Shown here: positions 26,600 through 46,188 of the stretch, piece after piece
Position numbering within the stretch: position 1 is the first letter of the stretch
How the letters are laid out: each line of letters begins with the position of its first letter
IMG/VR virus record: IMGVR_UViG_3300020193_000035
Span: 1-52,616 of that record
Length of the DNA stretch: 52,616 nt
From: a virus
Strand: one strand, 5' to 3'
Position numbers and translations under genes: made by a program
The notes under the pieces: generated by a model
What the model was told of the DNA's origin: nothing
Database searches by the model: none
The model's input: the letters and a program-made list of their open reading frames with translations, nothing else

Positions 26600-26653
26600 C
26601 AATCATAAGAAGAACATAATAGGGCCGTGACGAGCCACCCCAGAGGAGTCGTG

Positions 26654-28594
26654 ATGACAAACATTTTTGATCGCTTCAGGAAAGAACAGATCGCTCGCAG
26701 TGTAGAGTATATTGGCTTCAATGAATACCTAGACTTTTGCAAGGATGACAGGCTGGCATACGCTACCGCAGCTGAACGCATGCTGTCAGCCATCGGCGCA
26801 CCAGAGCTGATAGATACCAGCAGAGATCCAAGACTCAGCAGGATATTCCTCAACAGGACGGTGCGTAGATATCCGGCCTTTTCTGATTTTTATGGCATGG
26901 AAGAAGCCGTCGAACGCATAGTAGGTTATTTCAAGCACGCAGCCCAAGGATTGGAAGAGCGCAAGCAGATACTTTATCTGTTGGGTCCTGTGGGTGGAGG
27001 AAAAAGCTCATTGGCTGAACGTCTCAAAGAATTGGTACAATCGTATCCTATATATGTGTTGGCAGCAGAAGATGGAACTCTCAGCCCTGTGATTGAAACA
27101 CCGCTGAATCTTTTTGATCCAGCGAAATATGCAGATGCTCTCAAAGACGAATATGGCATCGAACGCAGGTACATCTCAGGTATCGCTAGCCCTTGGGCGA
27201 TCAAACGCCTGAAAGAGTATGGCGGCGACATCAGCCGCTTCCAAGTGGCCAAGGTATGGCCCAGCAAGCTGGAACAGATTGGTGTGGTCAAGACCGAACC
27301 CGGAGACGACAACAATCAAGATATCTCGGCACTGGTTGGCAAAACCAATATCCGCATGCTGGAACATTACAGTCAAAGCGATCCTGACAGCTACAGCTTC
27401 AGTGGTGCCTTGTGTCGCGGCAACCAAGGTATAGTAGAATTTGTAGAAATGTTCAAGGCACCGATCAAGATGTTGCATCCACTGCTGACAGCAACACAAG
27501 AAAGCAACTATATCGGTACTGAAGCCATTTCGGCTATTCCATTCAACGGTGTGGTTCTGGCACACTCAAACGAAGCGGAATGGCAGACCTTCAAGAGCAA
27601 CAAAAACAACGAAGCATTCATTGATCGTATCAATGTGGTCAAGATTCCCTACTGCCTCAGGATAACAGATGAAATATCCATCTATGAAAAGATGCTGGAA
27701 GTTTCCAGTCTTGGTTCGGCACCATGCGCACCACAGACTCTGAACATGCTGGCCAAGTTCAGCGTGCTCACTCGTTTGAAGGAGCATGAAAATTCCAACC
27801 TTTACAGCAAGATGCGTGTGTATGATGGTGAGGCGGTCAAGGATGTTGATCCCAAGGCCAAGAGCATGCAAGAATACAGAGATGCTGCTGGAGTAGACGA
27901 AGGCATGGAAGGCATTTCTACTCGTTTTGCTTTCAAGGTCTTGTCAAAGACGTTCAACTTTGATCCAGCCGAAGTATCTGCAGATCCTGTGCATCTCATG
28001 TATATACTCGAGGATGCCATCCGTAGAGAACAATATTCCGACGAAAAGCAAAACGAATACATCGGCTTCATCAAAGAGTATCTCAGTCCCAAATACGCTG
28101 AGTTCATTGGACATGAGATACAGAAGGCCTATCTTGAAAGTTACTCAGACTATGGTCAGAACTTGTTTGACCGTTATGTAGAATATGCTGATGCTTGGAT
28201 GCAGGAAATCGATTTCAAGGATCCAGACACAGGTAACTTGTTTGATCGTGACATCTTGAACAATGAACTGGAAAAGATCGAAAAGCCAGCAGGCATCGCC
28301 AATCCCAAAGATTTCCGCAACGAAGTGGTCAATTTCGTGTTGCGTGCACGTGCCAAGAACACCGGTGGCCTGGTCAAGTGGACCAGTTACGAAAAGCTGC
28401 GCGAAGTGATCGAAAAGAAGATGTTTGCCAGCACCGAAGAGCTGCTGCCCATCATCAGCTTCTCTGCCAAAGGCAACAGCGAAGATCAGAAAAAGCACGA
28501 AGCCTTTGTTGACAGGATGGCCAGCAAAGGTTACACGCCCAAACAGGTCAAGAGGCTAGTGGAATGGTACATGCGTGTTCAGAAGAGCTCATGA
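26654..28594 (+). CDS. prkA: PrkA-family serine protein kinase
   Basis: 646 residues from ATG 26654 (GAGGAG upstream), near the length of E. coli YeaG (644). The start MTNIFDRF, RYPAFSDFYGME and the Walker A GPVGGGKSS at about 111-119 match the PrkA family, which has an AAA+-like N-domain and a kinase C-domain. In bacteria PrkA/YeaG works with YeaH and SpoVR/YcgB in stationary-phase and starvation responses. Here the three genes are consecutive. Tandem TAAATA boxes upstream suggest late or boosted expression by the phage. Confidence 0.95.
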   Translation: MTNIFDRFRKEQIARSVEYIGFNEYLDFCKDDRLAYATAAERMLSAIGAPELIDTSRDPRLSRIFLNRTVRRYPAFSDFYGMEEAVERIVGYFKHAAQGLEERKQILYLLGPVGGGKSSLAERLKELVQSYPIYVLAAEDGTLSPVIETPLNLFDPAKYADALKDEYGIERRYISGIASPWAIKRLKEYGGDISRFQVAKVWPSKLEQIGVVKTEPGDDNNQDISALVGKTNIRMLEHYSQSDPDSYSFSGALCRGNQGIVEFVEMFKAPIKMLHPLLTATQESNYIGTEAISAIPFNGVVLAHSNEAEWQTFKSNKNNEAFIDRINVVKIPYCLRITDEISIYEKMLEVSSLGSAPCAPQTLNMLAKFSVLTRLKEHENSNLYSKMRVYDGEAVKDVDPKAKSMQEYRDAAGVDEGMEGISTRFAFKVLSKTFNFDPAEVSADPVHLMYILEDAIRREQYSDEKQNEYIGFIKEYLSPKYAEFIGHEIQKAYLESYSDYGQNLFDRYVEYADAWMQEIDFKDPDTGNLFDRDILNNELEKIEKPAGIANPKDFRNEVVNFVLRARAKNTGGLVKWTSYEKLREVIEKKMFASTEELLPIISFSAKGNSEDQKKHEAFVDRMASKGYTPKQVKRLVEWYMRVQKSS

Positions 28595-28600
28595 CATCGC

Positions 28601-29896
28601 ATGGCAGATTATCAGATAATTGATCGCAGGAAGAACCCCAGCGGCAAGAGCCTTTCCAACCGCCAGCGTTTCCTACGCAAAGTAAAAAAGCACCTTCGGG
28701 ATCAAATCCGGGAGGCCATGAACAGTCGCAAGATCGAAAGCAAGGACGGCGAGGAAATCGTCGTCCCTGGCGACGGAATCAACGAACCCAACTTTGATTA
28801 CGATCGCAACACAGGCGAACGGGAAAGGATCTTGCCTGGCAACAAAGGATTCATTGTTGGTGACAAGATCAACAAGACGCAGCAGGGCAGCGGCGGCCAA
28901 GGACGTCAGGGCAGCACCAGCGGCCCAGATCAAGATGAATTTCGTTTCAGCATAACCAGAGACGAGTATCTTGATCTGGTGTTTGAAGATCTTGAGCTGC
29001 CAGACATGATCAAGAAAAACGAAAAGGCCGCAGTGGCCTTCCAGAAGCAGCGTGCAGGATATCAAGTCATTGGTTCTCCAAGTGCATTAGACATGATACG
29101 CAGTCTCAAGAACAGCCTAGGACGTAGATTGGCTCTAGGCCGTCCCAAAGAAGAAGAAATAGAAAAAGCCAGGCTGTTGGTTGAAGAATTGGAAAGCAAT
29201 CCAAGATCCACACCTGAGATGTTGGCAGATGCTAGATTCTTTTTGGACAGCATGCTCAAAAAACGCAAGTTGGTGCCTTGGGTCGATCCCATAGACATAC
29301 GCTATCGTCGCTGGGATCAAAAGCCCATACCCAACGCACAGGCAGTGATGTTCTGTCTCATGGATGTGTCAGGATCCATGGGCGAAGCCGAAAAAGAAAT
29401 AGCCAAACGATTCTATCTACTGTTGTACCTGTTCCTGCAAAGAAAATACGAGAAAGTGGATATCGTGTTTGTTCGTCATACTGAACATGCCAAAGAATGC
29501 GACGAAGGCGAGTTCTTCAACAGCCAGGAATCAGGCGGCACGGTCATCAGTACCGGATTGGAACTGGTCAACGATATCATCAACAAGAGATATCCTCTCG
29601 ATGCCTGGAACATATATGTGGTGCAGGCCAGTGACGGAGACAACTTCGCGCACGATAATGGTCGTGTGAAAGACCTTTTGGATCTCATGCTGCCCAAGGT
29701 ACAATACTATGTGTATGCCGAAGTCAAGGATGTGCCGCGTCAGCAGTCGTTCATGTATGGAACACATGATACTCATGTGTGGGCCATAATGAAAGAAATG
29801 TCAGAGGCCTATGATCAGCTGTGTTATATAAAGATAGAGAACATACAGCAGGTCGTTCCTACCTTCAGGAAAGTGTTTTCCAAGGAGATCAAATGA
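28601..29896 (+). CDS. yeaH: YeaH/YhbH-family (DUF444) protein with vWA domain
   Basis: 431 residues. A basic N-terminus (IDRRKNPSGKSLSNRQRFL) is typical of UPF0229. A central glycine-rich linker is followed by a von Willebrand A domain with the MIDAS motif MDVSGSMG at about residues 254-261 and SGGTVISTGLEL. YeaH is the partner of PrkA/YeaG. Its stop overlaps the SpoVR start (ATGA). A 38-base piece of this gene recurs at 47520. Confidence 0.95.
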   Translation: MADYQIIDRRKNPSGKSLSNRQRFLRKVKKHLRDQIREAMNSRKIESKDGEEIVVPGDGINEPNFDYDRNTGERERILPGNKGFIVGDKINKTQQGSGGQGRQGSTSGPDQDEFRFSITRDEYLDLVFEDLELPDMIKKNEKAAVAFQKQRAGYQVIGSPSALDMIRSLKNSLGRRLALGRPKEEEIEKARLLVEELESNPRSTPEMLADARFFLDSMLKKRKLVPWVDPIDIRYRRWDQKPIPNAQAVMFCLMDVSGSMGEAEKEIAKRFYLLLYLFLQRKYEKVDIVFVRHTEHAKECDEGEFFNSQESGGTVISTGLELVNDIINKRYPLDAWNIYVVQASDGDNFAHDNGRVKDLLDLMLPKVQYYVYAEVKDVPRQQSFMYGTHDTHVWAIMKEMSEAYDQLCYIKIENIQQVVPTFRKVFSKEIK

Positions 29897-31368
29897 CGAC
29901 CCCATTGTTTGAAGGTTCAGAATGGAACTATCAGCTGCTGGAACGTGCCATGGACGAATGTGCCAGGATAGCACACGAAGAACTACGACTAGACACATAC
30001 AAGAACCAAATAGAAATCATATCCAGCGAACAGATGTTGGATGCTTATGCGTCGGTAGGCATGCCTATATTCTATAGGCATTGGAGTTTTGGCAAGAAAT
30101 TCAGCAGAGAGCGCGACCTATATCAAAAAGGCAAACGTGGGCTGGCCTATGAACTGGTGATCAATTCAAATCCTTGCATCAATTATCTCACGGAAGAAAA
30201 CACGGCCTGCGCACAGACTTTGGTGATCGCCCATGCTGCATTTGGTCATAATCATTTCTTCAAGAACAATTATCTGTTTCGCCAATGGACAGATGCAGAT
30301 GGCATCATTGACTATCTAGTGTTTGCCAGGAACTATGTTGCACAGTGCGAAGAAAGATATGGGGAGCAAGCAGTAGAACAAACTTTGGACGCTGCACACA
30401 GCCTCATGATGAATGGTGTGGATCGTTACAAGAGACCCAGGAAGTTGAGCCTGGCCGAAGAAGAAAAACGCCAGAAAGAGCGTGTGGCCTACATCGAAAA
30501 AAACATCAACGACCTATGGAGGACACTTCCTACCAGTCCCGAACACAAAGAATCAAAGGAAGAACGTTTTCCCAAACAACCAGAAGAAAACATACTCTAC
30601 TTTTTGGAGAAGAACAGTCCTACTCTCAAGATATGGCAGAGAGAACTCCTACGCATCGTGCGCAAGACTGCACAGTATTTCTATCCACAATACCAAACCA
30701 AGGTCATGAACGAAGGTTGGGCCAGTTTCTGCCACTATTACATCATGAATCGTCTGTATGAAAAGGGCTTGCTCACAGATGGAGCCATGATGGAGTTTTT
30801 GCAGCTACACACGTCTGTGCTCTGGCAACCGGCATTTGACAGTCCATACTATTCGGGCCTAAATCCTTACTATCTTGGATTTGAGATGTTCCAGGACATA
30901 CGTCGCATCTGTACCGAACCCACCGACGAGGATAGAGAATGGTTTCCAGATCTTGTGGGGCAGGACTGGTTGGAAGTCTGTTTGGATGCAGTGGCCAATT
31001 ACAGGGACGAAAGTTTTATCAGGCAATTCCTCAGTCCGCATCTCATACGCAAGTTGAAGCTGTTTTCCTTGGTCGACGATGCCAGGTTGGAAGATTATGT
31101 GATCAGCAACATACATGATTTTGGTGGTTACAAAAAGATCAGGTCCATATTGGCCAGTCAGTATGAGTTGGAAGAATGGGCTCCCAAGATAGAAGTGACT
31201 GAAGCGGATCTCAAAAACACTCGAAAATTGGTGTTGACTTATTATCGCAGGAAAGGCCGAGACCTCAGCGACTCGTGGTTAAATATGCTGATAAACATCA
31301 AACAACTCTGGGGACACAAGACCGTGTTGCAGACACAGAGAGGAAATGTGATAGGCGAAGATGAATAA
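29893..31368 (+). CDS. spoVR: SpoVR/YcgB-family protein
   Basis: 491 residues from ATG 29893, coupled to yeaH by ATGA. Family landmarks include YASVGMPIFYRHWSFGKKF, LAYELVINSNPCI, AHAAFGHNHFFKNN and NEGWASFCHYYIM, with several conserved His. Known relatives are Bacillus SpoVR (spore cortex) and E. coli YcgB, which acts with YeaG/YeaH. Its biochemical activity is not established. E. coli YcgB is about 510 residues, so this copy is near full length. Confidence 0.95.
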   Translation: MTTPLFEGSEWNYQLLERAMDECARIAHEELRLDTYKNQIEIISSEQMLDAYASVGMPIFYRHWSFGKKFSRERDLYQKGKRGLAYELVINSNPCINYLTEENTACAQTLVIAHAAFGHNHFFKNNYLFRQWTDADGIIDYLVFARNYVAQCEERYGEQAVEQTLDAAHSLMMNGVDRYKRPRKLSLAEEEKRQKERVAYIEKNINDLWRTLPTSPEHKESKEERFPKQPEENILYFLEKNSPTLKIWQRELLRIVRKTAQYFYPQYQTKVMNEGWASFCHYYIMNRLYEKGLLTDGAMMEFLQLHTSVLWQPAFDSPYYSGLNPYYLGFEMFQDIRRICTEPTDEDREWFPDLVGQDWLEVCLDAVANYRDESFIRQFLSPHLIRKLKLFSLVDDARLEDYVISNIHDFGGYKKIRSILASQYELEEWAPKIEVTEADLKNTRKLVLTYYRRKGRDLSDSWLNMLINIKQLWGHKTVLQTQRGNVIGEDE

Positions 31369-32150: not shown

Positions 32151-32221
32151 CCAGCAGACAATTCAGCACCTACCGAAGATTAACGGTAGCACAAGTCAAT
32201 GACATTCTGTGAGCATTGTTG

Positions 32222-32229
32222 TATAAATA
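32222..32229 (+). promoter_or_regulatory. Late promoter of the tmRNA, perfect TATAAATA
   Basis: The only full eight-base match to the T4 late consensus that I found. Transcription would start near 32236, just before the acceptor piece of the tmRNA. Confidence 0.75.
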
Positions 32230-32235
32230 TGTCTG

Positions 32236-32690
32236 TAGCGTTGAAGCAAGCTGAAAAGCATACTGGACGCGGGGGCGGTACCCGCCGCCTCCACCATAAG
32301 GAAATTGAATGAATATTGAAACACATTTTAAAAATCAAGTAGATTCCGGTGCTACGAAAATGTTCTTTTACGGACTTGAAAATGAAGACCAATCCAAGGT
32401 TGAAATTAAAAGTCACAAAGGTACATTGGAAAGTTTTCCAAATACACTAGAATATATTAGACATTTAAGTGAAGGTATTCCATTATTCAAAGTTTCTTTA
32501 TGATGGGGGCGAAATAGGATCGACAGGTGTGTAATAGGCAAGTGGAGTTACCGGGCGCAAGCACCGTTATCGCAAGAAAACAAGTAACTGCAAACGATAA
32601 TTTCTTTGCACTGGAAGACAATCGCCTAGCGGCGTAATTCTTTCGGGGTTTTGGTGGTTGCACCTGGCAACAGAAGCAATCACCGCACAG
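32236..32690 (+). ncRNA. ssrA: Circularly permuted (two-piece) tmRNA
   Basis: The acceptor piece comes first (about 32240-32296). Its T-stem is 32269-32273 with 32281-32285 and it ends ACCA at 32293-32296. The coding piece begins at 32505. Bases 32505-32511 (GGGGGCG) pair with 32286-32292 (CGCCTCC) into a 7-bp acceptor stem whose third pair is G-U, the alanine identity element. A further helix joins 32527-32532 to 32258-32263. The tag frame 32590-32637 encodes ANDNFFALEDNRLAA, ending in an LAA degron. A 9-bp helix (32653-32661 with 32676-32684) closes the coding piece. The T-loop (GGCGGTA) is non-canonical. The permuted order is known mainly from alphaproteobacteria. The 5' and 3' ends are estimates. 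Confidence 0.9.
32309..32503 (+). CDS. Small ORF nested in the tmRNA intervening segment
   Basis: 64 residues starting MNIETHFKNQVDSG. It occupies nearly all of the 208 bases between the tmRNA acceptor CCA (32296) and the coding-piece 5' end (32505). AAGGAA lies seven bases before the ATG. The segment is visibly more AT-rich than its neighbours and uses A/T-ending codons, suggesting separate origin. The protein is soluble, with no recognised domain. Whether it is translated before or after tmRNA processing is open. Confidence 0.6.
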   Translation: MNIETHFKNQVDSGATKMFFYGLENEDQSKVEIKSHKGTLESFPNTLEYIRHLSEGIPLFKVSL

Positions 32691-32729
32691 TTGTCACAGA
32701 GAGTGACACACAGTAACAGGAGAATAGAA

Positions 32730-40476: not shown

Positions 40477-40553
40477 GCGCCTGTAGCTCAATTGGTCAGA
40501 GCAGCGGACTCATAATCCGTTGGTTGGGGGTTCGAGTCCCTCCGGGCGTACCA
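40477..40553 (+). tRNA. tRNA with CAT anticodon (Met or Ile2)
   Basis: Cloverleaf with a 7-bp acceptor, anticodon CAT at 40511-40513, T-loop TTCGAGT and encoded ACCA. It lacks initiator features. The anticodon-arm context (CTCATAATC...TTGGTTG) is closer to Ile2 (lysidine-modified) than to the second CAT tRNA at 43424, so isoleucine is possible. Confidence 0.93.
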
Positions 40554-40616
40554 TCTTTTCGCAGGAAAGAAAAAGAAGTTTTTTGGCTAACTCAACCTTG
40601 ATTGAAGTTGACCAGA

Positions 40617-40622
40617 TAAATA
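40617..40622 (+). promoter_or_regulatory. Late-type promoter box
   Basis: TAAATA (GATAAATAG) before the small ORF at 40643. Confidence 0.5.
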
Positions 40623-40642
40623 GACATCATACTATGAGGACT

Positions 40643-40798
40643 ATGATGCAAACAACGTCGGTAACATCAATGTTGGAAACATGCTCACCCGAGATCGAGG
40701 AACGCCAATCTTTTGGCAACACACTCGGTCACCAGTGGTATGCCAAGCCAGCAAGTAGTGATCCGGTCAGGTCCTCGTTGGGGGGCTGTTCCAAGTAA
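40643..40798 (+). CDS. Small hypothetical protein between tRNA genes
   Basis: 51 residues (MMQTTSVTSMLETCSPEIEE), hydrophilic, between the first tRNA and the main array. A TAAATA box at 40617 and GAGG lie upstream; a terminator follows at 40823-40852. Weakly supported. Confidence 0.4.
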   Translation: MMQTTSVTSMLETCSPEIEERQSFGNTLGHQWYAKPASSDPVRSSLGGCSK

Positions 40799-40822
40799 GA
40801 ACAGACTCAACAAACAACAAGG

Positions 40823-40852
40823 ACCCCGGATCGAAAGATACCGGGGTTTTTT
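40823..40852 (+). terminator. Rho-independent terminator
   Basis: ACCCCGGATC stem with GAT-A-CCGGGGT (one bulged A), GAAA loop, then six T. Confidence 0.88.
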
Positions 40853-40872
40853 ATTCATCGGACACAAAGAGG

Positions 40873-40901
40873 TTGACTGGCGCAACGAAGCTTAGTATAG
40901 T
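40873..40901 (+). promoter_or_regulatory. Sigma70-type promoter of the first tRNA run
   Basis: TTGACT, 17 bases, TATAGT, after a terminator and ~140 bases before tRNA-Pro. The leader 40908-41045 holds no convincing gene, only a small CTGCG/CGCAG hairpin near 40982. Confidence 0.75.
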
Positions 40902-41045
40902 ACCATCACTACGTGCGATGCGGAACGAGACTGCGGAAGGCACGCTAAACTTCTTCCATATGGGCGGAGGCCAGGATGAAATCTGCGGCGGTAACGCAGA
41001 GAGTAAAATTGGTCGGCGATCATTGGAACGAATGTTAAAGTATAT

Positions 41046-41124
41046 CTCGGTGTAGGATAGTCTGGTTCATTCCGCCTGCTTTGGGAGCAGGATGTCGCAA
41101 GTTCGAATCTTGCCACCGAGACCA
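41046..41124 (+). tRNA. tRNA-Pro(TGG)
   Basis: Perfect 7-bp acceptor (CTCGGTG with CACCGAG), anticodon loop TTTGGGA with TGG at 41082-41084, TTCGAAT T-loop and encoded CCA. First of a run of closely packed tRNAs behind the promoter at 40873. Confidence 0.95.
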
Positions 41125-41128
41125 TTAT

Positions 41129-41202
41129 TGGGGATTCGTCTAACGGTAGGACGTCGGATTTTGATTCCGACTATGGTGGTTCGAGTCCATCATCCCCAGC
41201 CA
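41129..41202 (+). tRNA. tRNA-Gln(TTG)
   Basis: Acceptor TGGGGAT with ATCCCCA, anticodon TTG at 41161-41163, discriminator G and encoded CCA. Confidence 0.95.
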
Positions 41203-41214
41203 ATTAGCCAATTT

Positions 41215-41289
41215 GGAGCGTTCGTCTATCGGCTAGGACGCTGGCCTTTCACGCCGGAAAGAGGGGTTCGATTCCCCTACGCTCTACCA
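41215..41289 (+). tRNA. tRNA-Glu(TTC)
   Basis: Acceptor GGAGCGT with ACGCTCT (first pair G-U), anticodon TTC at 41248-41250, T-loop TTCGATT and encoded CCA. The discriminator is A where G is usual. Confidence 0.94.
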
Positions 41290-41316
41290 AACACCATACT
41301 ATTTTGTATATTTAAT

Positions 41317-41394
41317 GTACCGATACCAGAGCGGTCTAATGGCTACGCCTGCAAAGCGTGTGATTCGTAGGTTCAAATCCTACTCGGTACTCCA
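41317..41394 (+). tRNA. tRNA-Cys(GCA)
   Basis: Acceptor GTACCGA with TCGGTAC, anticodon GCA at 41351-41353, discriminator T (the cysteine identity base) and encoded CCA. Confidence 0.94.
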
Positions 41395-41402
41395 AACGAA
41401 AT

Positions 41403-41485
41403 GCGCTAGTGGCGGAATTGGTAGACGCACTGGATTTAGGTTCCAGCGGGCAACCGTGGGGGTTCGAGTCCCTCCTGGCGCACCA
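41403..41485 (+). tRNA. tRNA-Leu(TAG)
   Basis: Acceptor GCGCTAG with CTGGCGC, long variable arm, anticodon TAG at 41437-41439 and encoded CCA. Confidence 0.95.
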
Positions 41486-41494
41486 ATGATCAAT

Positions 41495-41570
41495 GGGGGT
41501 GTAGCTCAGTTGGGAGAGCGTTAGCTTTGCAAGCTAAATGTCGTCGGTTCGATCCCGTCCACCTCCACCA
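41495..41570 (+). tRNA. tRNA-Ala(TGC)
   Basis: Acceptor GGGGGTG with CACCTCC, including the G3-U70 pair recognised by AlaRS. Anticodon TGC at 41528-41530, encoded CCA. Confidence 0.95.
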
Positions 41571-41577
41571 AATCAAT

Positions 41578-41656
41578 TCCGCAGAACCCGAGCTAGGTGC
41601 ATGGGCGTGACTGTTAATCACTGGTTAGCTGAGTTCGAATCTCAGATGCGGAGCCA
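41578..41656 (+). tRNA. tRNA-Asn(GTT)
   Basis: Acceptor TCCGCAG with ATGCGGA (mismatch at the seventh pair), anticodon GTT at 41613-41615 with one imperfect stem pair, T-loop TTCGAAT, discriminator G and encoded CCA. More degenerate than its neighbours but probably functional. Confidence 0.88.
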
Positions 41657-41660
41657 ATTT

Positions 41661-41739
41661 GACTCGTTAGCATAGTCTGGCCTATTGCGCCGCCCTGTCA
41701 CGGCGGAGGACACCGGTTCGAATCCGGTACGGGTCGCCA
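41661..41739 (+). tRNA. tRNA-Asp(GTC)
   Basis: Acceptor GACTCGT with ACGGGTC, anticodon stem CCGCC/GGCGG, anticodon GTC at 41697-41699, discriminator G and encoded CCA. Confidence 0.94.
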
Positions 41740-41746
41740 TATAAAT

Positions 41747-41823
41747 GAGTCAGTAGTTCCAATTGGCAGAACGGCAGTCTCCAAAACTGCATGTTGTAGG
41801 TTCGAATCCTACCTGGCTCGCCA
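41747..41823 (+). tRNA. tRNA-Trp(CCA)
   Basis: Acceptor GAGTCAG with CTGGCTC, anticodon CCA at 41781-41783, discriminator G and encoded CCA. Last tRNA before the minus-strand cupin gene. Confidence 0.94.
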
Positions 41824-41861
41824 GTTTAGTTTGTTTGATTTTTTTCGGTTTTGCTCTTTTA

Positions 41862-42518
41862 TCACTTGGCTAGATAGGTACGATTGAGCATGGTGTGGTT
41901 GTGGTCGGTAGGACCCCAATCACCATCAGGATGGAAAGCAATCACAGTCATGAAACTGTTTTCTGTGCGAAAGCGATGGCGTTCCTGCTCGGACAGAGAA
42001 AAGGTAGTGCCCGTGAGCAATGCATCTTCTTCTATCGCACCTGTTTCACCGTGGCTGCTGAATCCTTGTCCATCGATCACACAACCTATGCGTATGCTGG
42101 GGTGACGATGGAAAGTCTGGTCGATGCCAGGCGGGAAGTAAAGTAGATTGAGACTGCTGTCGCCCATGCGTGCTGGATACACCAGCAAGCTGTCGCTGCA
42201 CCCATCGATGTAACTGAGTCGGCCTTGTTTTTCGACCCAGCCGATGGTGTTCATGACCATGTATCCTAGGCGCAAGACCAAGAACAAACGATCTTCGGCC
42301 ACGCCGTTGACCTTATTGGCTACGCTGAGTCCAAAGTATTGTCTTGCTTCCAGGTGATGTGTTTTGCCATCCACTTCCAAGTGGGAGTTGCCATAGCTGT
42401 AGCCATAGATAGAACAATACTTGGCGAACTCAGGCAATTGGAACTTTTCGTTGTGGAACATGTGTCCTTTGGTAGGATACATACTGGTGAGTTGGTCAAG
42501 ATTTTTGCCGATAAGCAT
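41862..42518 (-). CDS. Cupin-domain phage protein
   Basis: 218 residues. The C-terminal half has the cupin pattern: FPPGIDQTFHRHPSIRIGCV (His-x-His with upstream Gly) and, further on, HRFRTENSFMTVIAFHPDGD with a second metal His. An N-terminal ~100-residue domain precedes it. It could bind metal and act on a small molecule or sugar. It is antisense to the flanking tRNA genes, with a minus-strand ATAAATA box at 42542-42548 and AAAGGA upstream. Confidence 0.75.
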   Translation of the reverse strand: MLIGKNLDQLTSMYPTKGHMFHNEKFQLPEFAKYCSIYGYSYGNSHLEVDGKTHHLEARQYFGLSVANKVNGVAEDRLFLVLRLGYMVMNTIGWVEKQGRLSYIDGCSDSLLVYPARMGDSSLNLLYFPPGIDQTFHRHPSIRIGCVIDGQGFSSHGETGAIEEDALLTGTTFSLSEQERHRFRTENSFMTVIAFHPDGDWGPTDHNHTMLNRTYLAK

Positions 42519-42541
42519 TTGAAATATTTCCTTTCAATGAA

Positions 42542-42548
42542 TATTTAT
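42542..42548 (-). promoter_or_regulatory. Late-type promoter box, minus strand
   Basis: ATAAATA on the minus strand for the cupin gene starting at 42518. Confidence 0.6.
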
Positions 42549-42600
42549 TGTTCTAAAGAACAACCATGTCTGCCTCGAGCTAGGTTCGGGGCCGCGAATT

Positions 42601-42666
42601 CATTGCCGCCTGGTACATGCCAGTGAATGTTGGGTGCGAAAAGCCCAATACGGAGACATAACCGTA
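42601..42666 (+). other. Run of three short hairpins before tRNA-Tyr
   Basis: CTGG/CCAG with an outer CATT/AATG (42601-42629), TTGGG/CCCAA (42630-42648) and TACGG/CCGTA (42649-42666). The 130-base stretch holds no ORF and ends 15 bases before tRNA-Tyr. Confidence 0.4.
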
Positions 42667-42680
42667 GCGAACGAGATCGC

Positions 42681-42767
42681 GGGGAAGCGGCGAAGTTGGA
42701 GAGTCACGGCAGACTGTAAATCTGTTGCCTTAGGGCTGAGTTGGTTCGAATCCATCCTTCCCCACCA
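42681..42767 (+). tRNA. tRNA-Tyr(GTA)
   Basis: Class II tRNA with acceptor GGGGAAG/CTTCCCC, anticodon GTA at 42716-42718, long variable arm and encoded CCA. A TAAATA box begins at the base after the CCA. Confidence 0.94.
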
Positions 42768-42773
42768 TAAATA
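42768..42773 (+). promoter_or_regulatory. Late-type promoter box after tRNA-Tyr
   Basis: TAAATA begins immediately after the tRNA CCA. It would drive the iron-permease-like gene at 42910 with a ~125-base leader, which contains a small GATGT/ACATC hairpin and no gene. Confidence 0.55.
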
Positions 42774-42909
42774 TCCCAACCAAAAGATTTGGTCAAACAC
42801 AAGGATCAACCATGCCAAGCAGTGGTAGTATCTAGTCGATATTGACAAGTTAGATGTATCACATCTCCTGTTGGTATCGACGCAATATTCGCGTTAGCAG
42901 GAGAAGATC

Positions 42910-43224
42910 ATGGGCTCCTTCATCCAAAATAGATTCGAGATCCTGGCACATTGGATCTCAGCGAACCTAGGACATCCTTATGCTTTCACCAGCGCACTTT
43001 TTGTCGTGACGCTGTGGGCAGTGACAGGACCGGTCTTTGGTTACTCAGACACGTGGCAGCTGGTGATCAATACCAGCACCACCATCATCACTTTCCTCAT
43101 GGTGTTCTTGTTGCAGAATACTGGCAACAGGACCATTGAGGAACTGCACGAGCGCCTTAGGGTGCTTGAAGAACAGAACAATGAATTGTTACACGAGATC
43201 AGGCAGATGCGAGCTGCCGATTGA
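42910..43224 (+). CDS. Low-affinity iron permease-like membrane protein
   Basis: 104 residues. An amphipathic start leads to two hydrophobic segments (YAFTSALFVVTLWAVTGPVF and TSTTIITFLMVFLLQNTGNR) and a coiled-coil tail (EELHERLRVLEEQNNELL). SDTWQLVINT and TFLMVFLLQNT match the PF04120-type family named for low-affinity iron permeases. The transport role in that family is poorly established. CAGGAG precedes the ATG. Confidence 0.75.
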   Translation: MGSFIQNRFEILAHWISANLGHPYAFTSALFVVTLWAVTGPVFGYSDTWQLVINTSTTIITFLMVFLLQNTGNRTIEELHERLRVLEEQNNELLHEIRQMRAAD

Positions 43225-43262
43225 TGAGATACAACATTGGTTATATACTTTTTGCTGTTTGC

Positions 43263-43337
43263 GGGCGGTTAGCTCAGTGGTAGAGCGCCTCGTTTACACC
43301 GAGGATGTCGGGAGTTCGACCCTCTCACTGCCCACCA
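43263..43337 (+). tRNA. tRNA-Val(TAC)
   Basis: Acceptor GGGCGGT with ACTGCCC, anticodon TAC at 43295-43297, encoded CCA. Opens the second tRNA run. Confidence 0.95.
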
Positions 43338-43342
43338 GACAT

Positions 43343-43417
43343 GCCGGATTAGCTCAGCGGTAGAGCAGCGGTTTTGTAAACCGAAGGTCGGGAGTTCAAT
43401 CCTCTCATCCGGCACCA
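43343..43417 (+). tRNA. tRNA-Thr(TGT)
   Basis: Acceptor GCCGGAT with ATCCGGC, anticodon TGT at 43375-43377, T-loop TTCAATC and encoded CCA. Confidence 0.95.
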
Positions 43418-43423
43418 ATTTAT

Positions 43424-43499
43424 TGCGGGTTACGTCAGTGGTCAGACTATCAGGCTCATAACCTGAAGGACGGAGGTTCGAATCCTTCACCCGCAACCA
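43424..43499 (+). tRNA. tRNA-Met(CAT), elongator
   Basis: Acceptor TGCGGGT with ACCCGCA, anticodon stem CAGG/CCTG, anticodon CAT at 43457-43459, discriminator A and encoded CCA. No initiator-type GC run in the anticodon stem. Confidence 0.93.
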
Positions 43500-43537
43500 T
43501 ACCAAAATAATTAACGCAGTTGGCATTGAAAAATTAA

Positions 43538-43629
43538 GGAAGTGTGGCAGAGCCCGGTTTAATGCACCTGACTTGAAATCAGACGAGGGGGCGACTCCTC
43601 CGTGAGTTCGAATCTCACCGCTTCCGCCA
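43538..43629 (+). tRNA. tRNA-Ser(TGA)
   Basis: Class II tRNA; acceptor GGAAGTG/CGCTTCC, anticodon TGA at 43574-43576, long variable arm, discriminator G and encoded CCA. Confidence 0.95.
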
Positions 43630-43657
43630 AACCTGGTTTGGCTGTTTTGAAGATTAA

Positions 43658-43749
43658 GGTGGGTTGGCCGAGAGGTTGAAGGCACTGGTTTGCTAAACCG
43701 GCGTACCTTGTAAAAGGTACCATTGGTTCGAATCCAATACCCACCGCCA
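43658..43749 (+). tRNA. tRNA-Ser(GCT)
   Basis: Class II tRNA; acceptor GGTGGGT/ACCCACC, anticodon GCT at 43692-43694, variable arm with a GTACC/GGTAC helix, discriminator G and encoded CCA. Confidence 0.95.
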
Positions 43750-43753
43750 TATC

Positions 43754-43830
43754 GCCTCCGTAACTCAGTGGACTAGAGTCATGCGCTTCGAACGCATTGG
43801 TCGGGGGTTCGAATCCCTCCGGAGGCTCCA
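43754..43830 (+). tRNA. tRNA-Arg(TCG)
   Basis: Acceptor GCCTCCG/CGGAGGC, anticodon stem ATGCG/CGCAT, anticodon TCG at 43788-43790, encoded CCA. The discriminator is T, unusual for arginine. Confidence 0.92.
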
Positions 43831-43847
43831 GGGCATATAGTTCAGTT

Positions 43848-43921
43848 GCGGGCGTGATGTAATGGAAGCCTGAAACCCTGCCATGGTTTACGCACGAGTT
43901 CGATTCTCGTCGCCCGCTCCA
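43848..43921 (+). tRNA. tRNA-Gly(GCC)
   Basis: Acceptor GCGGGCG/CGCCCGC, anticodon GCC at 43880-43882, discriminator T as usual for glycine, encoded CCA. Confidence 0.94.
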
Positions 43922-43974
43922 CTTTATCCCACCTAGTATTCTCACGGACATCGCAATGGGAGTTTGGTGACTTT

Positions 43975-44050
43975 GGGCCGGTAACTCAATAGGTAGAGTA
44001 TCAGACTTTTAATCTGAGAGTTGTGGGTTCAAGTCCCACCCGGCCCCCCA
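43975..44050 (+). tRNA. tRNA-Lys(TTT)
   Basis: Acceptor GGGCCGG/CCGGCCC, anticodon TTT at 44008-44010, T-loop TTCAAGT, encoded CCA. The discriminator reads C, which is unusual. Confidence 0.93.
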
Positions 44051-44054
44051 AACT

Positions 44055-44137
44055 GCAAGCATGGTGGAATTGGCAGACACGAGAGACTTAAAATCTTTTG
44101 CTTAGGCGTGCCGGTTCGAATCCGGCTGCTTGCACCA
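44055..44137 (+). tRNA. tRNA-Leu(TAA)
   Basis: Acceptor GCAAGCA/TGCTTGC, anticodon TAA at 44089-44091, class II variable arm, discriminator A and encoded CCA. Confidence 0.94.
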
Positions 44138-44160
44138 GGAATACCAAAATAATTTTTTCA

Positions 44161-44243
44161 GCCCTAGTGGTGGAATTGGTAGACACGCCTGACTCAAAAT
44201 CAGGTTCGCAAGAGTGGGGGTTCGAGTCCCTCCTGGGGCACCA
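44161..44243 (+). tRNA. tRNA-Leu(CAA)
   Basis: Acceptor GCCCTAG/CTGGGGC, anticodon CAA at 44195-44197, class II variable arm, encoded CCA. Sequence very close to tRNA-Leu(TAG), suggesting duplication. Confidence 0.95.
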
Positions 44244-44246
44244 AAA

Positions 44247-44252
44247 TAAATA
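44247..44252 (+). promoter_or_regulatory. Late-type promoter box
   Basis: TAAATA four bases after tRNA-Leu(CAA), before the oxygenase-like pair. Confidence 0.55.
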
Positions 44253-44269
44253 AAAAACTGCGAGAGAAC

Positions 44270-44821
44270 ATGTTCTTTACAAAGCTAAAATTACCTGTTG
44301 AATTGAAGCCATATGATTATGGAATGAACAACCCAGAAGAATTCTGCGAGTTGGAAATGTCAATGGACCATATCAATAGAGAGTTGCATGACTTTTTACG
44401 CAGTCTAAATTTAGAAATAATAAAGCCTCGATATTTTCACAGCGGCCCTCCACATATATATCGCTTGCACATAGACATTCCAACAAGACCAAATCGTTAC
44501 ACAAGGCTGAACTGGGTGTTTGGTGGTGCAGGAAGCGAAATGGTTTGGTATGCATCGAAACCAGGCAAGGTTCCAACTGTGATGCAAAATAACTTGGGTG
44601 AAAATTATCAAATATACGACCTTGAGGATTGTGACGAAATTGGACGAGGACATGTTATTGGTCCAAATCTTGTGGACGTGGGTACCATACACAATTTAAT
44701 AGGTGGTAGCGAACAGCGACATTGTTACTCTTTCTTTCTTAGAGATAAGAAAGGAAACGGTGATAGACTAGAATGGTCACAAGCGATTGAGAAATTTGCT
44801 CCGTTCATGGAGAGATCATGA
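44270..44821 (+). CDS. 2OG-Fe(II) oxygenase-like protein, paralogue A
   Basis: 183 residues. YRLHIDIP gives His67-x-Asp69, followed by RLNWVFGGAGSEMVWY. A distal His appears in VGTIHNLIGG and an Arg in SEQRHCYSFFL. The fold pattern is a double-stranded beta helix of the oxygenase or cupin type. The DNA is more AT-rich than the surrounding genes. It is coupled by ATGA to a clear paralogue, and a TAAATA box lies at 44247. Confidence 0.7.
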   Translation: MFFTKLKLPVELKPYDYGMNNPEEFCELEMSMDHINRELHDFLRSLNLEIIKPRYFHSGPPHIYRLHIDIPTRPNRYTRLNWVFGGAGSEMVWYASKPGKVPTVMQNNLGENYQIYDLEDCDEIGRGHVIGPNLVDVGTIHNLIGGSEQRHCYSFFLRDKKGNGDRLEWSQAIEKFAPFMERS

Positions 44822-45384
44822 ACGCTACCTCTGACAGATGCTATAGAAATATCAATATACCAGTGGATTTCAGGCCATGGGACTTTGGTTATGCAAACAA
44901 AAATGAATTTTGTGAGCTTGATATCAAGCCCAACATGGTCAATACAGAAATACATGATTTTTTTGATTCAATTGGTCTTGTGCTTTTACGAGGAAGATAT
45001 TTTCATTGTTTGCCCGGTGTGAGATACAATTTACACACAGACAATAAATTTGAATCCAGTAGAGAACTGATAAAAGTCAATTGGGTATTTGGTGGTGCAG
45101 GCAGCAATATGATTTGGTACAATCTTAAACCAGGTAAAGGTCCTAGGATCTATAAAAATAGCATGGGCGAAGAAATAGTAGGGTACAATGAAGAAGACTG
45201 TGTTGAAATATGCCGTGCACATATTCCCAAACTGGCGATTGTAAATGTTGCGGTTGTGCATACAATACAAAATGCAAACGAATTTAGAGATTGCTATTCT
45301 ATGGTATTGGCGCACAAGCATAATAAAGTAAGATTGGAATGGAATGAGTCTATGGAAAAGATGTCTCCATATATCACAAATTAG
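44818..45384 (+). CDS. 2OG-Fe(II) oxygenase-like protein, paralogue B
   Basis: 188 residues, colinear with the preceding protein: both have FCELxxxxxxxNxExHDFxxS near residue 27, NLHTDN (H-x-D), VNWVFGGAGSNMIWY, a VVHTIQNANEF distal His and a C-terminal LEWxxxxEKxxP. Tandem duplication followed by divergence is evident. The substrate is unknown. AT-rich like its partner. Confidence 0.7.
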   Translation: MNATSDRCYRNINIPVDFRPWDFGYANKNEFCELDIKPNMVNTEIHDFFDSIGLVLLRGRYFHCLPGVRYNLHTDNKFESSRELIKVNWVFGGAGSNMIWYNLKPGKGPRIYKNSMGEEIVGYNEEDCVEICRAHIPKLAIVNVAVVHTIQNANEFRDCYSMVLAHKHNKVRLEWNESMEKMSPYITN

Positions 45385-45385
45385 G

Positions 45386-45414
45386 TTGTTCTAAAACAAG
45401 CAATCTGTTATATT
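45386..45414 (+). promoter_or_regulatory. Weak sigma70-type promoter
   Basis: TTGTTC, 17 bases, TATATT, ahead of the tRNA-like fragment and the phosphoesterase gene. Confidence 0.4.
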
Positions 45415-45422
45415 ACAATATT

Positions 45423-45447
45423 GCGAGCGTGGAGAAATTGGTAAACA
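45423..45447 (+). pseudogene. 5' fragment of a tRNA-Leu-like gene
   Basis: GCGAGCG TGGAGAAATTGG TAAAC reads like the acceptor strand and D-arm of the nearby leucine tRNAs (GCGCTAG TGGCGGAATTGG TAGAC), then stops. No anticodon arm or CCA follows; the sequence passes into the AAGGAGG of the phosphoesterase gene. A recombination relic is likely. Confidence 0.55.
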
Positions 45448-45459
45448 AAGGAGGGCACG

Positions 45460-46062
45460 ATGCCTAGCGTATTCTTAGTAAGCGATACGCACTTTGGTCA
45501 CGAAAAGTGCTGCACGGTCTTCAAACGTGTAGACGGTAACCCGTTGCGTCCTTTTGCTTCAGCAGAAGAAATGGACGAAACCATGATCGCACTCTGGAAC
45601 GAACGTGTGCGCCCTTCTGACAAGGTCTACCACTTGGGTGATGTAGTGATCAGCCGCAAATACCTCAAGACGTTGAGCCGGCTCAATGGCGACAAGGTCT
45701 TGATCCGTGGCAATCATGATATCTTCCACTTGGAGGACTACCTGGAGCATTTCCGTGACGTGCGTGGTTACCATGTGATGAACGGACTTATTTTAAGTCA
45801 TATCCCTGTCCACGAATCAAGTCTTGGTAGGTTTGGTTGTAATATACACGGACACTTACACGCCAACAGAGTTATGAAGGCGAGAGGTGTCGATGTTAGA
45901 ACTGGTGAAATCTTATACAGCGATGAGATTGATCCAAGATACTGGTGTGCCTGTGTTGAACAAACAGACTTCGCTCCTATCCTGTTCGAGGATGTCTTAA
46001 AGAGGATTACGGAACAAGGTGGCACCGTGGGATTTAGAAACGGCAATGGGCCCACGATGTGA
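45460..46062 (+). CDS. Calcineurin-like metallophosphoesterase
   Basis: 200 residues with the full motif set: SDTHFGH (Asp9, His11), HLGDVV, RGNHD, LSHIP and GHLH. These ligate a two-metal centre. Small phage members can act on nucleotides or RNA ends; the substrate here is not visible. AAGGAGG, lying just after a truncated tRNA-Leu-like sequence, serves as ribosome binding site. Confidence 0.88.
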   Translation: MPSVFLVSDTHFGHEKCCTVFKRVDGNPLRPFASAEEMDETMIALWNERVRPSDKVYHLGDVVISRKYLKTLSRLNGDKVLIRGNHDIFHLEDYLEHFRDVRGYHVMNGLILSHIPVHESSLGRFGCNIHGHLHANRVMKARGVDVRTGEILYSDEIDPRYWCACVEQTDFAPILFEDVLKRITEQGGTVGFRNGNGPTM

Positions 46063-46065
46063 GTG

Positions 46066-46095
46066 TTGACACCGTGGGCTTCATGCATATATAAT
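46066..46095 (+). promoter_or_regulatory. Sigma70-type promoter of tRNA-Gly(TCC)
   Basis: TTGACA, 18 bases, TATAAT (perfect -35 and -10), 18 bases before the tRNA; the barrel gene downstream may share it. Confidence 0.85.
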
Positions 46096-46113
46096 GCCTG
46101 TGTGAAAAGATAT

Positions 46114-46188
46114 GCGGGTGTAGCTCAGTGGTAGAGCTTCTGCCTTCCAAGCAGAATGTCGTGGGTTCGAATCCCATCGTCCGCTCCA
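46114..46188 (+). tRNA. tRNA-Gly(TCC)
   Basis: Acceptor GCGGGTG/CGTCCGC, anticodon TCC at 46146-46148, discriminator T and encoded CCA. Separate from the main array and served by its own host-type promoter at 46066. Confidence 0.95.

Follow-up and report, generated by a model that had tools for sequence, protein, structure and literature searches.

The spacer of a circularly permuted tmRNA gene in a T4-like bacteriophage holds a small protein-coding gene. The stretch of DNA analysed, hereafter the window, is a complete IMG/VR virus record of 52,616 bases from a virus of bacteria. Permuted tmRNAs of phages are already known, and the new element is the protein gene nested in the spacer. This gene was overlooked in the preliminary description of the window and is the main peculiarity of the locus. 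We consider it probable that the locus represents an intact permuted phage tmRNA whose spacer now serves as a slot in which one small protein gene can be exchanged for another, with translation of that gene and maturation of the tmRNA in competition. Judged from sequence, the tmRNA is intact, the nested frame is conserved, the helix joining the spacer ends covaries, the border signals are common to many phages and the cargo is independent of the tmRNA backbone. The features of the locus, all on the plus strand, are as follows.

32199..32229, +, promoter-like element, ATGACA (32199-32204), 17 nt, then TATAAATA (32222-32229); a consensus match only
32236..32296, +, tmRNA acceptor piece, the 3' half of the tRNA-like domain, encoded first; start approximate (the RF04321 match begins at 32235)
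32269..32285, +, T-arm within the acceptor piece
32286..32292, +, acceptor-stem 3' strand CGCCTCC, followed by discriminator A (32293) and CCA (32294-32296)
32297..32504, +, intervening sequence of 208 nt between CCA and H1 position G1
32297..32307, +, panhandle left arm TAAGGAAATTG, including the Shine-Dalgarno AAGGA (32298-32302); from covariation and predicted fold
32309..32503, +, nested cargo gene P0001, 64 aa, its TGA stop separated from the coding piece by 1 nt
32490..32504, +, panhandle right arm AAGTTTCTTTA plus TGAT, flush with G1 and containing the cargo frame end and stop; from covariation
32505..32728, +, tmRNA coding piece, the 5' half of the tRNA-like domain followed by the mRNA-like domain; 3' end approximate
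32505..32511, +, H1 5' strand GGGGGCG of the coding piece
32590..32637, +, tag reading frame ANDNFFALEDNRLAA with its stop codon

A permuted tmRNA is called by ARAGORN at 32204-32728 with the tag ANDNFFALEDNRLAA, and the region matches the Rfam models alpha_tmRNA (RF01849; 32195-32684, 121.9 bits, E = 8.4e-33, cut-off 50) and tmRNA_permuted (RF04321; 32235-32637, 108.4 bits, cut-off 47). The preliminary description had read the locus in this way from the letters alone, and its main elements are borne out by these matches: the acceptor half precedes the coding half, the acceptor stem forms all seven of its pairs including G3-U70, and the tag frame ends in LAA, a hydrophobic AA ending. No group I intron family is among the Rfam matches of the window and the T-arm is uninterrupted. 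These features indicate a complete, intact circularly permuted (two-piece) tmRNA. No SmpB is encoded on the 52.6-kb contig, which may be partial, and the SmpB of the host is assumed to serve. Two oddities claimed earlier disappear on comparison. The T-loop GGCGGTA, described as atypical, is the alpha_tmRNA consensus and is found in most alphaproteobacterial tmRNAs inspected, and the occurrence of a permuted tmRNA in a phage is not unusual, two-piece phage tmRNAs having been described already in a published survey (PMC9004378). The window tmRNA by itself is therefore ordinary.

The gene content of the contig agrees with the proposed T4-like phage, and the Rfam matches with kinship to alphaproteobacterial tmRNA; the capture from the host that was proposed along with these is no more than a possibility. 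The phage character is seen in the gene complement. Its T4-like traits comprise a DnaB-like helicase and primase, an exonuclease, a class Ia ribonucleotide reductase, baseplate-type proteins, T4 RNA ligase 1 and 21 tRNA genes (40477-46188), mostly clustered 8-14 kb downstream of the tmRNA. The contig also carries PrkA kinase, DUF444 and SpoVR genes in a row (26627-31368), a bacterial stress-type set. Upstream of the tmRNA, a perfect late promoter had been proposed together with use late in infection. The T4-late motif is indeed present, with a single TATAAATA at 32222-32229, and the window contains 13 copies of ATAAATA where 3.7 are expected, an enrichment reached in 0 of 100 shuffles. However, ATGACA, 17 nt and TATAAA also fit sigma-70, so the element matches both patterns at once, an exclusively late promoter or expression is not supported, and late use in infection is not secured. 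Sigma-70-like promoters with at most 2 mismatches of 12 precede 47 of 101 phage permuted tmRNAs, compared with 3.5 expected, and are often fused to ATAAATA. The window element itself is not listed by a stricter scan because that scan demands that the -10 box end in T.

The nested gene fills the 208-nt spacer with 64 codons, from ATG at 32309 to TGA at 32501-32503. Its Shine-Dalgarno sequence, AAGGA, lies 6 nt upstream of the ATG and directly after the encoded CCA. The product, P0001, has no Pfam match at E 0.1 and no PHROG match at E 0.001, and falls outside the S23p and endonuclease families of both collections. AlphaFold nevertheless predicts a confident fold (pLDDT 91.6), for which no solved relative was found below E 0.1; among viral proteins the best match to the fold, at E = 3e-6, is a phage protein that is itself uncharacterised. 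Two pattern-seeded scans placed relatives of P0001 at no fewer than 45 viral loci, at least, and a pattern-seeded scan of cellular genome contigs returned no homologues. Named phages yielded no relatives of either the window gene or the window tmRNA. At five of the viral loci (L002-L006) the gene again occupies a tmRNA spacer, at the same position and with 80-86% identity to that of the window, and dN/dS between the window gene and the other in-spacer homologues is 0.16-0.26. Among these carriers the acceptor stem is kept by compensatory change (GGGGGCG, GGGGGUG, GGGUCGG and GGGCCUG).

At most other loci the gene is free-standing, sometimes near a cargo-less tmRNA (L029/L030, L024, L009). Four of the free-standing homologues lie near a tRNA-Pyl gene with a CTA anticodon, amber suppressor-like, called by ARAGORN (L009, 2250-2325; L010, 1413-1487; L012, 2380-2454; L016, 2746-2821), which hints at amber recoding in these phages. 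A 117,666-bp contig (IMGVR_UViG_3300032288_004815) holds two copies of the free-standing locus in opposite orientation (L014/L015), an arrangement that could reflect either an inverted repeat or faulty assembly. In L005 (62-1093) a cargo-bearing permuted tmRNA is followed about 0.8 kb downstream by a second, cargo-less one, and between the two lies a gene related to that of a GIY-YIG endonuclease.

The arrangement extends well beyond this gene. Scans for the left border, an alpha-type acceptor and the right border, retaining only fully paired acceptor stems, gave a first sample of at least 103 distinct permuted tmRNAs. Seventy-six of the 103 listed have cassette-type spacers of at least 100 nt, which fall into 43 types. 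In 34 of these 43 types a single open frame begins 9-16 nt after CCA and ends either no more than 15 nt short of G1 or past it; shuffled spacer interiors gave a mean of 1.3 such types and a maximum of 5 in 500 trials. The remaining nine types fail this rule, some of them holding shorter, shifted or apparently broken frames. A second sample was drawn by the tag region, without regard to the spacer; among the matches listed it yielded 99 resolved permuted tmRNAs, mostly with short, frameless spacers. In ten of its 12 spacers of at least 120 nt, nevertheless, an open frame 25 codons or more in length extends to the right arm, and several of these framed spacers have borders unlike those of the first set.

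The cargo proteins are mostly unrelated, forming 37 families by BLAST when all frames of at least 25 aa are counted, those of alpha-type spacers included. One is a thioredoxin with the motif WCGPC (PF00085, E = 4e-21) and another has relatives in Lak phages. A 123-aa cargo modelled at low confidence (pLDDT 68.5) has weak matches to GNAT acetyltransferases, suggestive only of such a function. The spacer frame of L058 (5255-5394; MIICICRDIRESHF...CCGSC), which extends beyond G1 into the coding piece, resembles by eye a bacterioferritin-associated ferredoxin and has no Pfam match. In the other cargo families with enough changes dN/dS is mostly 0.04-0.25; families 2 and 6 reach about 0.65-1.4 in some close pairs, with few changes. 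These ratios point to purifying selection in most of the comparable families. All of the cargo-bearing tmRNAs come from metagenome contigs. By these comparisons the spacer is a general slot, in which unrelated protein genes evidently stand at one position in related phages.

Cargo and backbone have also been exchanged. The tmRNA backbones of L208 and L199 are 97.4-98.9% identical and their cargo genes are unrelated, and a third cargo gene is found in L110, the backbone of which is 92-96% identical. Conversely, the P0001 gene resides in an alpha-type backbone in the window, a beta-type backbone in L002/L003 and others in L004 and L006. Median backbone similarity, a noisy measure, is 0.61 for pairs sharing a cargo and 0.60 for pairs with different cargo. 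Only high backbone identities were used, since unrelated sequences reach about 0.75-0.8 in the gap-tolerant alignment from which they are taken. A low identity between L077 and L130 was discarded as an artefact of a deletion in L130. Homologous recombination within the conserved tmRNA halves would account for the swapping of cargo.

The slot is bounded by a helix. The terminal 10-11 nt at the two ends of the spacer pair with each other, prolonging the acceptor stem into a panhandle that the fold predicted for the window precursor also shows. Standard pairs make up 749 of 810 panhandle cells in the tag-seeded sample, as against a shuffle maximum of 542; the first sample, biased because its border patterns prescribe one helix arm, gives 549 of 594 and a shuffle maximum of 490. 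Where cargo is present, the left arm usually reads TAAGGAA, which is the Shine-Dalgarno sequence, the TGA of the right border is the stop codon, and the cargo start is nearly fixed, lying 11-12 nt after CCA in 57 of 66. In a purely thermodynamic model, which takes no account of ribosomes, proteins or pseudoknots, the probability that the Shine-Dalgarno sequence is unpaired is 0.04 in the fuller precursor and 0.60 in nascent RNA that lacks the right arm (32 cargo types), and the nascent form is predicted to be the more accessible in all 32. Predicted start-codon accessibility runs against this trend, being slightly lower in nascent RNA.

From these features we propose that a single transcript serves as both tmRNA precursor and messenger. 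In nascent RNA the exposed Shine-Dalgarno sequence would allow the cargo protein to be made. Once the right arm and the coding piece have been transcribed, the helix would close, shutting off initiation, and the acceptor stem would become available to RNase P and the enzymes of 3'-end processing, which would remove the spacer. Cargo translation and tmRNA maturation would therefore compete, and the mature tmRNA would rescue stalled ribosomes with host SmpB. The fullest form of this proposal is that of a general exchangeable slot that takes its start and stop signals from the maturation helix, the transcript toggling between accessory-protein mRNA and ribosome-rescue RNA; we advance it tentatively, as a reading whose chances fall a little short of even.

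A passive slot without regulation is a serious rival, with a substantial though less than even chance of being correct. The spacer would be the sole insertion-tolerant place in the gene, ordinary accessory genes would profit there from a strong promoter, and the overlap of their signals with the helix would have no regulatory meaning. The diverse and functionally unconnected cargo speaks for this reading, as do the frames that stop at -13 or extend past G1. So does the presence of TGAT before G1 in 83 of the 99 tag-sampled tmRNAs, most of them cargo-free, because of which the stop codon must be regarded as structural first. The burial of the Shine-Dalgarno sequence predicted for the closed precursor of all 32 cargo types modelled and the nearly fixed start position weigh against passivity, but neither is proof of regulation.

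The cargo could instead be a selfish mobile element with tmRNA spacers as its target, akin to intron-encoded homing endonucleases. A GIY-YIG endonuclease gene (PF01541) lies immediately upstream of the free-standing P0001 homologue in L007, relatives of it adjoin the tmRNA in L004/L005, and the window gene is found in different backbone types. However, more than 30 cargo types share only their borders, with no recognised endonuclease among those scanned, and we consider this explanation unlikely. Less likely still, and in our view improbable, is that the tmRNA has decayed or been repurposed and, as a relic, merely gives structure to an mRNA. Some variants are damaged, such as L130, which lacks part of the coding piece present in L077 with the same cargo, but the G3-U70 acceptor stem, T-arm and AA-ending tag are kept across carriers with compensatory changes, and the Rfam scores are far over the cut-offs. 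That an ordinary permuted tmRNA has an open frame by coincidence, or that the locus is a chimera of assembly, is scarcely credible: a single 64-codon frame could arise by chance in an AT-rich spacer, but the shuffles, dN/dS, confident fold and same-position homologues in independent contigs contradict it.

The translation-maturation reading that we prefer gives the spacer a new significance. The intervening sequences of permuted tmRNAs have so far been treated as short throw-away spacers and here would form a working gene slot, which would explain the great length of some phage tmRNA genes and reveal a pool of small phage genes likely to be missed by automated annotation. The locus would be a natural example of a transcript acting as mRNA and structural RNA in turn, and it would tie ribosome rescue to phage accessory genes in a way that can be tested.

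Among known systems, the closest are other phage tmRNAs. The available part of the survey cited above counts 133 unique tmRNAs in 402 phages, 53 of the 133 being two-piece, and describes that of Methylophilales phage Melnitz without mention of a nested gene (PMC9004378). The two-piece tmRNAs of Melnitz, X1, Rb1, QDWS359 and S-CAM1 resemble that of the window in permuted order, acceptor stem and tag frame. No nested spacer gene is present in the four isolated-phage tmRNAs inspected: the spacers of Xanthomonas phages X1 (126 nt) and Rb1 (107 nt) and Stenotrophomonas phage QDWS359 (110 nt) have no frame filling them, and that of Synechococcus phage S-CAM1 is just a few nucleotides long, unlike the 208 nt of the window. 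The permuted tmRNAs of S-CAM1 (L223, KU686192.1; 1408-1722) and QDWS359 (L222; 1302-1719) are overlapped by annotated hypothetical proteins (AOV57467.1 and UQM93886.1, respectively), and that of X1 (L221; 1297-1747) is unannotated.

Alphaproteobacterial ssrA (RF01849) has in common with the window the T-arm GGGGGCGGTACCC, the GGGGGCGAAATAGGATCGAC start and the permutation, but its spacers have a median of about 33 nt in those inspected. A search of 190 genomes, with inspection of the 30 best-scoring loci and selected long ones, revealed no nested spacer gene, and the three confirmed long spacers (115, 165 and 232 nt) contain no cargo gene with a Shine-Dalgarno sequence. A 356-nt spacer (L360) was ignored as a wrong pairing that lacked CCA and a T-arm. 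A bacterial origin of the cargo borders was likewise set aside, no tmRNA being recognised at any of six genome-contig matches. The accessible part of a tmRNA database paper covering 97,179 sequences mentions a tRNA gene and a repeat as spacer contents and no protein genes, and our literature searches found no protein genes in tmRNA spacers.

Protein genes nested in structural RNA genes are known in two other settings. Group I introns with LAGLIDADG endonuclease genes also place a protein gene inside a tmRNA gene (PMC11915505), but they interrupt the T-loop, are self-splicing and carry endonuclease cargo only, whereas the window cargo occupies the spacer at the acceptor end. The intervening sequence of 23S rRNA in Coxiella burnetii, with its S23p frame, is like the window in holding a protein frame inside an excised spacer of a structural RNA; its protein is reported apparently not to be made (PMC4990558). 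The S23p system comprises a single protein family, whereas the phage slot accommodates many unrelated proteins, its Shine-Dalgarno sequence is conserved and its frame is under selection.
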